A DNA stretch of 64,000 bases. It comes from Halorussus salinisoli. GTDB taxonomy: Archaea; Halobacteriota; Halobacteria; Halobacteriales; Haladaptataceae. The DNA lies in assembly GCA_005239435.1 (NCBI GenBank), contig SZNP01000001.1:310001-374000 (forward strand), in the 5' to 3' direction. The notes under the pieces were generated by a model. It searched no databases. It worked only from the letters and a program-made list of their open reading frames with translations, and had not been told where the DNA came from. Shown piece after piece: positions 3,396 through 5,655 of this stretch. Each line of letters begins with the position of its first letter. The first letter of the stretch is position 1. A program made the position numbers and the translations under genes.

Positions 3396-4259
3396 ATGAC
3401 CGAGGAGTACAGCCTGCTCGAACCCGACAACGTGGAGGGCGTCGGCGACGAGTGGGAGGAGATAGACGTATCCGACACCGAGGCCGACAAGGTCCAGCGC
3501 CAGCGCGACCGAGAGTTCAACAAATTTCGGGAGCGACTGAAGAACACCGAGCAGTTCAAAGTCGAGCAGTCGGTGTTCGACGACGCGACGCTGGCGGCGC
3601 TCTACAAACTGGTCCAGGACGGCTATGTCCGGGCGTTCGGCGGTCCCATCTCCTCGGGGAAGGAAGCGAACGTCTACTCCGCACTCGGTGACGAAGAACA
3701 CGGCGAGGTAGCGGTCAAGGTCTACCGCATCAACGCCTCGGACTTCCGGGACATGCGCGAGTATCTCGTCGGCGACCCCCGATTTGAGGAACTGTCGGGC
3801 GACAAGAAACGGGTCGTCCTCGCGTGGACGCGCAAGGAGTCGGCCAATCTCAAGCGCGCCCAGAAAGCCGGGGTGCGCGTGCCCGAACCCATCGCCGTCC
3901 AGCGCAACGTCCTCGTGATGGAGTTTCTGGGAACCGACGGCGAACGCGCACCCACGCTGGACGACGCTCACCTCGAAAACCCCGAGACCGCCTTCGAGGT
4001 GGTCCGGGAGTACATGCGCAGGCTCTACGACGCGGGACTGGTCCACGGCGACCTGAGCGAGTACAACATCATCGTCCACGACGGCGAACTCTGTATCATC
4101 GACCTCGGACAGGCCGTGACCACCCACCATCCCAACAGCGGCGAGTTCCTGACGCGGGACTGCGCGAACATCGCTTCGTTCTTCCGGCGACAGGGGATGG
4201 ACGTTCGCGGCGACGAGTTAGAGGAGTGGATTCGGGAGAACGCCGACCCCAGCAAGTGA
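3396..4259 (+). CDS. rio1: RIO1-type serine/threonine protein kinase/ATPase
   Basis: Rio1 acts in late maturation of the small ribosomal subunit. The 287 residues contain an acidic N-terminus (1-50), the RIO nucleotide loop GGPISSGKEANVY (82-94), the ATP-binding Lys at 108 (VAVK), the catalytic Asp at 219 in HGDLSEYN and the metal-binding Asp at 236 in IDLGQ. All catalytic residues are intact. A TATA-like CCTTTTAC (3363-3370) lies 29 bp upstream. Its neighbours aIF1A and the KH protein at 5880 also belong to small-subunit biogenesis, the usual archaeal grouping, here interrupted by trpS. Confidence 0.96.
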   Translation: MTEEYSLLEPDNVEGVGDEWEEIDVSDTEADKVQRQRDREFNKFRERLKNTEQFKVEQSVFDDATLAALYKLVQDGYVRAFGGPISSGKEANVYSALGDEEHGEVAVKVYRINASDFRDMREYLVGDPRFEELSGDKKRVVLAWTRKESANLKRAQKAGVRVPEPIAVQRNVLVMEFLGTDGERAPTLDDAHLENPETAFEVVREYMRRLYDAGLVHGDLSEYNIIVHDGELCIIDLGQAVTTHHPNSGEFLTRDCANIASFFRRQGMDVRGDELEEWIRENADPSK

Positions 4260-4271
4260 CGACCGCGCGAT

Positions 4272-4306
4272 CCGAGGCGCGAACGAGCGAAACGTTCAAG
4301 CCTCGG
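4272..4306 (+). promoter_or_regulatory. Promoter of the trpS leader transcript, flanked by an inverted repeat
   Basis: CGAAAC (4288-4293) followed by GTTCAA (4294-4299) resembles a BRE plus TATA element. It lies 29 bp before the ATG of a 19-codon leader frame at 4326, predicting a leaderless start near 4321-4324. CCGAGGC (4272-4278) and GCCTCGG (4300-4306) form a perfect 7-bp inverted repeat around it, a possible operator. The TATA match is weak. Confidence 0.45.
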
Positions 4307-4325
4307 AACCGACTATCCTGACTCG

Positions 4326-4385
4326 ATGAGGTCCGCTCTCCGCACTTGGCGCTGGCAGACGCCCGGAGAGCGGACAGTGTCGTGA
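4326..4385 (+). CDS. Predicted Trp-containing leader peptide of trpS
   Basis: A complete short frame, ATG at 4326 to TGA at 4383-4385, encodes MRSALRTWRWQTPGERTVS. Trp codons fall at 4347-4349 and 4353-4355, two of 19 codons for the rarest amino acid. The frame sits directly in front of trpS (97 bp to its ATG) and at leaderless distance from a promoter-like element. The Trp codons lie in the loop of a perfect 12-bp stem. A stalled ribosome on these codons would open the stem. This is the arrangement of a classical attenuator leader. Neither expression nor conservation can be judged from one sequence. Confidence 0.6.
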   Translation: MRSALRTWRWQTPGERTVS

Positions 4386-4414
4386 CCGACGGCGCACCGG
4401 CCTCACCGGGCGTC
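4331..4414 (+). promoter_or_regulatory. Candidate attenuator with two mutually exclusive RNA pairings before trpS
   Basis: GTCCGCTCTCCG (4331-4342) pairs perfectly with CGGAGAGCGGAC (4364-4375), 12 bp. Inside it GGCG (4348-4351) can pair with CGCC (4360-4363). The segment GACGCCCGG (4358-4366) can instead pair over 9 bp with CCGGGCGTC (4406-4414), and the two structures exclude each other. A weaker CCTC/GAGG hairpin (4401-4404 with 4416-4419) uses the downstream arm region, and TCACTCG/CGAGTGA (4429-4435 with 4456-4462) forms another stem before trpS. Only a short T-rich run (CTTTCT, 4436-4441) is present, so control could be by termination or by access to the trpS start. Confidence 0.55.
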
Positions 4415-4482
4415 CGAGGTGGCGTCGCTCACTCGCTTTCTGGTGAACCGACCTCCGAGTGACAGCCGAAACCACGACATAG

Positions 4483-5655
4483 ATGCCTGAAAACGCAACT
4501 TCCGACGACTTCACCGTCACACCCTACGCGGTCGAGGGCGAGGTAGACTACCGCGAACTCCTCGACCGATTCGGCGCGGACGAACTGACGGACGACCAAA
4601 TCGCTCGCTTCCCCGGCCAGCATCCGATGGTCCGGCGGCGGGTGTTCTACGCCGGACGAGACGTGGACCGATTCCTCGAATCGGCGAACAGCGGCCGGAC
4701 CGTCTCGCTCGTGACCGGACGCGGGCCTTCGGGTCCGATGCACCTCGGGCACGTCTTGCCGTTCTACTTCGCCAAGCATCTGCAGGAGCAGACCGGCGCG
4801 CACGTCTACGTTCCGCTCTCGGACGACGAGAAGTACTTCACGAAGGACCTCTCGCTGGCGGAAATCGGCGAGTACACCCGAGAGAACCTCCGAGACCTCC
4901 TCGCGGTCGGGTTCGACCCCGAGCGAACCCGAATCGTAATCGATACCGCCGACGCCGACGTGGTGTATCCCCTCGCGGTCCAGTTCGCCAAACACGTCAC
5001 TCAGTCCACGATGGAGGCGACGTACGGGCGGCCGGACAACGTGGGCCTGTCGTTCTATCCGGCGGTCCAGATCGCCCACCTGCTCCTGCCCCAACTCGTC
5101 CACGGGCGACACGCGAGCATGGTCCCCATCGCGGTGGACCAAGACCCACACGTCCGCCTCGCGCGCGACGTGGCCGCGAAGGAAGCCTTCGACGTGGACA
5201 AGCCCGCGGCCCTGTTGAGCAAGTTCCTCCCGACGCTCGACGGCCCGGGGAAGATGAGCAGTTCGGGCGACGCGCCGGGTATCTATCTGACGGACGACCG
5301 TGAGACGGTCGAGGAGAAGATTCAGACTCACGCCTACTCCGGCGGGAAATCGAGTCTCGACGCTCACCGGAAGCACGGCGGCGACCCCGAGGTGGACGTG
5401 GCCTACCAACTGCTCGCGTTCTACTTCGAGGACGACGACGCGACCCTCGAACGACTCGCCGACGAGTACCGGTCGGGCGACCTGCTCAGCGGCGAACTCA
5501 AGGCCGCCGCCGCCGACAAAGTCGCGGACTTCCTCGAAGCACATCGGGAGCGCCGCGAACGCATCGGAGACCTCGAAGCCGAGTTCGAACCGTATCGGCT
5601 TACCGAAGACGAACGGGCGCGGGCGCGACCGGAGGGCGTCGGCCTCTTCGACTGA
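4483..5655 (+). CDS. trpS: Tryptophanyl-tRNA synthetase
   Basis: Charges tRNA-Trp with tryptophan. It is a class Ic synthetase of 390 residues, close to the length of archaeal/eukaryotic-type TrpRS. HLGH is at 87-90 within GPSGPMHLGH, KMSSS at 257-261, and the TrpRS-typical AVDQDPHVRLARD around 217-229. The ATG at 4483 is the first good start after the leader region. The absence of a clear TATA box just upstream and the presence of the leader frame suggest transcription from about 4322 with a 5' leader of about 160 nt, unusual where leaderless mRNAs dominate. It may be regulated by tryptophan supply through the leader. Confidence 0.95.
   Translation: MPENATSDDFTVTPYAVEGEVDYRELLDRFGADELTDDQIARFPGQHPMVRRRVFYAGRDVDRFLESANSGRTVSLVTGRGPSGPMHLGHVLPFYFAKHLQEQTGAHVYVPLSDDEKYFTKDLSLAEIGEYTRENLRDLLAVGFDPERTRIVIDTADADVVYPLAVQFAKHVTQSTMEATYGRPDNVGLSFYPAVQIAHLLLPQLVHGRHASMVPIAVDQDPHVRLARDVAAKEAFDVDKPAALLSKFLPTLDGPGKMSSSGDAPGIYLTDDRETVEEKIQTHAYSGGKSSLDAHRKHGGDPEVDVAYQLLAFYFEDDDATLERLADEYRSGDLLSGELKAAAADKVADFLEAHRERRERIGDLEAEFEPYRLTEDERARARPEGVGLFD

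Follow-up and report, generated by a model that had tools for sequence, protein, structure and literature searches.

A tryptophan-codon leader with two mutually exclusive RNA folds, probably a ribosome-mediated attenuator, upstream of trpS in haloarchaea

The leader, its promoter and the downstream gene

In a stretch of 64,000 nucleotides from the haloarchaeon Halorussus salinisoli (contig SZNP01000001.1; hereafter the window), a gene for a short tryptophanyl-tRNA synthetase (trpS) is preceded by a small reading frame with two Trp codons. The trpS product scores 555.7 bits against NF008927 (cut-off 478), matches PF00579 and has its closest relatives, at 76-87% identity, encoded at five named Halorussus loci. 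Another TrpS-like match in the same genome is of the long kind (G000:C5). A sequence-only reading of this DNA had pointed to the short frame with its two Trp codons, to a perfect 12-bp stem carrying both codons in its loop and to the 97 nt between the leader stop codon and the trpS ATG (4483), all of which were found again on re-reading the window. The features, all on the + strand, are as follows.

4288-4299: promoter-like element, with a BRE CGAAA (4288-4292) and a TATA-like box TTCAA (4295-4299), from the sequence, the AT profile of 116 leaders and the haloarchaeal motifs in PMC4983044
4326-4385: leader frame MRSALRTWRWQTPGERTVS, ATG at 4326 and TGA at 4383-4385, kept at 64 of 67 loci
4331-4342: 5' arm of stem 1, from covariation and the pairing in the window
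4347-4355: TGG CGC TGG, with Trp codons at 4347-4349 and 4353-4355, read from the sequence
4364-4375: 3' arm of stem 1, whose part 4366-4372 can instead form helix a with the pyrimidine tract, from the alignments and the helix a scores
4376-4382: 5' strand of helix b of the long hairpin, AGTGTCG, from alignment and folding
4397-4409: inner hairpin CCGG..CCGG, weak and clade-specific, in a region that holds the leader stop codon in many relatives
4423-4429: 3' strand of helix b, CGTCGCT, with one mismatch in the window (6 of 7 pairs)
4434-4441: pyrimidine tract CGCTTTCT, of which 4434-4440 pairs with 4366-4372; putative termination signal when unpaired
4483-5655: short trpS

Counted from the start codon of 116 leaders, AT content peaks at -34, at -30 to -26 and at -12 to -10. 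These peaks fit the BRE, TATA and -10 elements, with motifs CGAAA and TTWT, given for haloarchaeal promoters in PMC4983044; the box upstream of the leader, already regarded as promoter-like in the sequence-only reading, fits a haloarchaeal promoter. No sigma-70 promoter was found in 4260-4520, and trpS itself showed no comparable AT peak upstream, in an alignment of just 10 starts. A leaderless transcript is expected to have its BRE/TATA about 27-34 nt 5' of the start codon, and the profile of the 116 leaders agrees with this. The same source puts leaderless transcripts at 72% of the protein-coding transcripts of Hfx. volcanii (PMC4983044). Judged from this spacing, the leader message is probably leaderless.

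Conservation and distribution of the leader

The comparison across relatives that the sequence-only reading had proposed as a check showed the frame and its Trp codons to be kept at 64 of the 67 loci with a short TrpS (61 placed by script, three added later); the element is absent at L025, L036 and L049. Before alignment A1, L001-L005 (contigs shared with other loci), L073 (broken gene) and L074 and L075 (other TrpS types) were dropped. Where a short trpS lacks the element, other upstream sequences recur, TACATTATTATGCG at L049, L190 and L192 and GGTCAGTAGAAC at L025 and L036, which perhaps stand for another mode of control. Two short trpS genes are themselves damaged, one split between two frames (L072, G041:C9:85551-86710) and one carrying a stop (G040:C39:65262-66144).

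Leader peptides are very diverse between families, for example MQSALRGWRWRVRGADSLVAAA, MTSALEWSWRWQTPSRADSVVVAGDVA and MATSQAICWRWRAFREVDSIAV, and nearly constant within Halorussus; throughout, the Trp codons stay in or at the loop of stem 1. A leader attenuator should have several cognate codons in a short upstream frame, and 91 of 99 distinct leader peptides of Trp genes have at least two, the other 8 having one. These 99 derive from the 64 leaders and 55 further loci after removal of L153 (25.9 bits, taken as a false match), L154 (degenerate) and L123, L130, L137 and L150 (where the script placed no anchor); outside them stand 17 loci of a later search and the plasmid loci, and of these L207 and four of the plasmid leaders carry a single Trp codon. 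Of the TGG triplets located 5' of the 3' arm of stem 1 in these 99, 210 are in frame and 9 are not. With frame ignored in the choice of the start codon nearest to the 5' arm, the Trp codons were read without a prior stop in 98 of 99 leaders (104 unique leaders, 5 of them unscorable). Such codons should also be placed so that a stalled ribosome hides one arm of the first hairpin but not the other. In 81 of 99 the distance from the start of the last Trp codon to a GGACAGT box is 17-20 nt, the distances occurring in all three phases, and the masked folding described below agrees with this placement. The script anchored L011, L032, L035 and L098 2 nt off, which slightly blurs the counts of frame and distance and the helix a scores.

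Most leader frames run through the 3' arm of stem 1 and stop after it. At eight loci (L024, L044, L112, L113, L134, L136, L143 and L147) the frame ends before this arm and still retains one to three Trp codons, so that the codons, and not the end of the peptide, are what is kept. At L096 (G239, element at 1501-1647) a TGA stands at the Trp-codon site of relatives and the leader is cut to MTTALEWQ.

Among 392 Halobacteriales genomes, a covariance model of the element (R1) matched 178 (E <= 0.001), which represent 55 of 95 genera; among 196 genomes of the phylum, the 12 positives all belonged to this same order. Short TrpS was present in 68 of 195 genomes of the order, some copies being broken or partial, and in these 195 element and gene occurred together in 64, the gene only in 4, the element only in 18 and neither in 109 (Fisher p about 1e-29, genomes being counted without regard to kinship). 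A model of the 3' half only (R2) found 40 of 40 R1-positive genomes at 47 places, apparently all R1 sites too, and under stricter filters none of 160 R1-negative genomes (of 214 such genomes). A close short TrpS is also encoded on nine named haloarchaeal plasmid records (H1-H9), seven of which carry the element; the carriers include Haloferax mediterranei ATCC 33500 pHME505 (MVSTSHANCWRWHAFREVDSIAV) and Hfx. larsenii, and just one Trp codon is present in four of these seven leaders. On pHME505 the leader start computes to record position 426544. The element is absent from the other two records, both of Halobaculum.

The further loci number 72 (the 55 and the 17; L151 repeats L024), and 59 could be assigned by similarity of the downstream gene: short TrpS in 37, long TrpS in 19, serS in two and trpD in one. 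As the identity between long and short TrpS is about 31%, the element serves two TrpS families. The other 13 comprise L115 and L118 (trpS-like by eye, frame uncalled), a broken serS (L139), five GNAT genes, L132, L146, L145 and the weak L153 and L154. Comparison across relatives thus bears out the target named in the sequence-only reading, the enzyme that charges the same tRNA. The trpD gene (TIGR01245, 396.1 bits) follows an element on the minus strand (L114, G015, 3521-3672) whose leader MLSAFRSWSWRWYRSGKRTVS has three Trp codons; it is the only trpD seen with the element. The element-linked serS (TIGR00414, 422.1 bits) follows a leader, MESTSRSRSQSSFWEVDS, with Ser codons through the loop, and is a second copy, the other SerS in both genomes being 41-42% identical.

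At L140, L149 and L139 (G171, G190) the scaffold carries Ser codons and belongs to accessory serS genes; the second of two such leaders in G190 is followed by a serS remnant with two stop codons. Behind the scaffold in five genomes lie genes for GNAT acetyltransferases (L144, L148, L197, L208 and L210), with leaders that have no common codon theme; here the scaffold may be a sensor of ribosome stalling in general. A gene with a methyltransferase domain, in two copies (L132 and L146, G186), and an ABC transporter gene (L145, G279) were also seen behind it, again with no clear theme in the leader codons.

Stem 1, the long hairpin and the effect of a masked arm

Stem 1 covaries. In A1, 58 leaders have GC and 6 have AU at one of its pairs, a second pair is CG in 53 leaders and UA in 5, and at L011 a CG pair becomes GC; the outermost two pairs are not formed in 20 and 23 of 64. 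Two of five covariation measures in A1 gave no clear gain over shuffles (six double-changed pairs, 39/500; pair types, 338/500). In alignment A2, made from other loci and aligned with the model, hence biased towards the model structure, 97 cells were changed on both sides compared to 27.7 in shuffles.

With the 5' arm of stem 1 withheld, RNAalifold found a long hairpin in each of four clades, as grouped by us. Its helix b (AGTNTCG with CGNNGCT) together with two inner pairs is paired in 89.5% of cells in alignment A3, against 31.7-52.2% when slid, and the variable pair of helix b is GC in 23, AU in 15, GU in 3, CG in 2, UG in 1 and unpaired in 14. At the base of the hairpin, helix a joins the 3' arm of stem 1 to the pyrimidine tract in two registers, used by 30 and 34 of 64 leaders. 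Over 92 distinct sets of arm and tract its matched score was 17.96, with at least 6 bp in 83; permuted tracts gave 16.89 (maximum 17.41 of 200) and shuffled tracts 13.44 (maximum 14.24 of 200), so that none of 200 reached the matched score in either control. One position of the arm is either C or U: of the 18 arms with U, 5 have A as partner, and of the 69 arms with C, none has. At L011 a change in the arm is matched within stem 1, and the tract has no matching change. Because helix a and stem 1 share one arm they are mutually exclusive, and both hairpins are conserved, with strong support for stem 1 and helix b and moderate support for helix a.

The conserved alternative to stem 1 is thus 4366-4372 with 4434-4440, extended by 4376-4382 with 4423-4429. 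The sequence-only reading had proposed for this part a 9-bp pairing of 4358-4366 with 4406-4414, which exists in the window but is not the conserved partner: at least 7 bp form in 12 of 64 leaders, among them 9 of 12 Halorussus-type ones, and it was rejected as a conserved second stem because it is largely confined to Halorussus. The inner hairpin (72.3% paired in A1) was likewise rejected as a covarying helix, its support being weak and clade-specific. A helix farther downstream that would complete a 1:2 / 2:3 / 3:4 scheme (A1 columns 172-177 with 207-212) was paired in 71.1% of cells, compared to 69.8% after shuffling (30/500). A free search for complementarity scored 16.04 against 14.63 with permuted partners (sd 0.26, 107 sequences), at scattered positions. 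A box about 18 nt 3' of the GCTC box (window 4423-4475, and relatives) can pair with CGNNGC at some loci, for example CGATGC with GCATCG, and is weak in A1.

A stalled ribosome was imitated by a mask over the leader that reached 12 nt beyond the point where the last Trp codon starts, with folding at 42 C and standard, not high-salt, parameters. By this computation helix a exceeded 0.5 in 83 of 102 masked leaders, compared to 22 of 102 unmasked ones, and averaged 0.09 with the ribosome at the stop codon; stem 1 exceeded 0.5 in 72 of 102 unmasked leaders and stayed below 0.5 in 30. Shuffling of the tracts left 27% of 445 masked folds above 0.5, so that part of the masking effect reflects base composition. 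As regards placement, comparison supports the sequence-only reading in its claim that stalling at the Trp codons would block stem 1, the 5' arm being what the ribosome would cover. Of its interpretation the Trp-codon leader, the masking geometry and the cognate target stand and the second stem does not; nor is the element confined to trpS, since trpD and serS also follow it.

Proposed control of trpS, rival readings and known systems

This leader, with in-frame Trp codons and two exclusive, covarying folds, is likely to be a ribosome-mediated attenuator predicted to raise trpS when charged tRNA-Trp is scarce, and we infer the following course of events. Transcription would begin at the leader ATG, and the first ribosome would translate the leader as a leaderless message. 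With ample charged tRNA-Trp this ribosome would reach the stop codon, which lies within the downstream hairpin, stem 1 would hold its own 3' arm, the pyrimidine tract would be left single-stranded and transcription would end before trpS, the exposed tract serving as a candidate U-rich site for the archaeal terminator FttA. With charged tRNA-Trp scarce, the ribosome would stall at the Trp codons, where it covers the 5' arm of stem 1; the 3' arm, now free, would join with the tract in the base of the long hairpin, hiding the tract, and RNA polymerase would continue into trpS. The exposed tract is taken as the OFF signal because its exposure accompanies free translation and trpS should rise with uncharged tRNA-Trp. 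FttA sites are described as optimally U-rich 30-36 nt before the RNA end (PMC11616081), a spacing that predicts RNA ends near 4467-4475, before the trpS ATG. The tract is short, with T at four of its columns in 48, 59, 33 and 34 of 64 leaders.

The same Trp-codon sensor might have another output, namely translation of trpS (through re-initiation or access to its start) or cleavage and stability of the leader-trpS RNA, the tract being a site for a nuclease or another protein. An intrinsic terminator, a GC hairpin followed by a U run, was not found in 4260-4520, and FttA is itself described as a ribonuclease preferring U-rich RNA (PMC11616081), so that cleavage without termination would be possible; however, the switching helices lie more than 40 nt before the trpS ATG and in the window exclude it, and no sequence like a Shine-Dalgarno was seen there by eye, which makes such an output rather improbable. 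Very unlikely is an inverted logic in which the long hairpin, GC-rich and ending in a U-containing tract, is the terminator and a stalled ribosome lowers trpS. The synthetase would then fall when tRNA-Trp is uncharged, unlike the case predicted in PMC1262725 for attenuation of trpS and leuS in bacteria, and with the stop codon inside the hairpin free translation would melt it, as the computed 0.09 for helix a indicates. We give hardly any credence to an aptamer for tryptophan or uncharged tRNA, of riboswitch or T-box-like kind, with the frame incidental: its targets would be synthetases, as for many bacterial T-boxes (PMC1262725), but no Rfam family covers the element at gathering score, the frame bias is strong and the codons in the loop change with the amino acid that the target gene serves. 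Just as implausible is a functional micropeptide with RNA folds as by-products of its codons, which the near-constant Halorussus peptide would suit but which conflicts with the eight leaders that keep Trp codons without the C-terminal part, the wide differences of peptides between families, the Ser in place of Trp before serS and the covarying pairings.

Attenuation by a leader peptide is a textbook bacterial mechanism, for which the trpL-type leaders of bacterial trp operons are the general model. The proposed attenuator shares with these a short leader, repeated Trp codons and a ribosome position read by mutually exclusive hairpins; it differs in its predicted leaderless message, in the lack of a detected GC hairpin with U run or of an Rfam match, and in a stop codon that in most leaders lies beyond the 3' arm of stem 1. 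As no intrinsic terminator was found, we liken it to trpL-type attenuators in its working and do not class it as a member. The auxiliary, indolmycin-resistant TrpS of Streptomyces is under attenuation. The closest resemblance is to the attenuators predicted before Streptomyces trpS and leuS in PMC1262725, which also gives cases of trp attenuators in Actinobacteria: both have a leader with cognate codons before a synthetase gene that is often an additional copy, whereas the Streptomyces ones are bacterial, with classical terminators and poly-U tracts, and the sequence of the element is unrelated as far as Rfam shows. To termination by Rho in bacteria and FttA in archaea (PMC11616081) the likeness is that the position of the ribosome would decide on exposure of a U-rich termination site, the part of FttA in the archaeal element being that of a candidate. 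Bacterial T-box leaders likewise make synthetase genes respond to tRNA charging; the archaeal element differs in that it is predicted to sense through translation of a frame, and an Rfam search of it, T-box included, gave no family at gathering score and just two sub-threshold matches of microRNA type.

Bacterial erm and cat leaders sense drug-stalled ribosomes. A joint reading, which we offer tentatively and hold to be possible at somewhat less than an even chance, is that the haloarchaeal leaders are the founding archaeal class of ribosome-stalling attenuators, in which one scaffold is used and the loop codons set what is sensed: Trp before the two TrpS families and trpD, Ser before accessory serS, and, with mixed loops before GNAT, methyltransferase and ABC genes, drug-stalled ribosomes. 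FttA would then act as the archaeal Rho, and the class would have an independent archaeal origin, its sensor being the first ribosome to translate a leaderless message.

In the open-licence literature, judged mainly from listings, no archaeal leader-peptide attenuator was found; as stated in PMC8241225, the fluoride riboswitch was as of 2021 the only experimentally determined natural riboswitch of archaea. If our reading is true, the element would, as far as we know, be the first leader-peptide attenuator known in archaea, and if confirmed it would allow transcription-translation coupling in archaea, and the idea that FttA monitors this coupling, to be tested physiologically.
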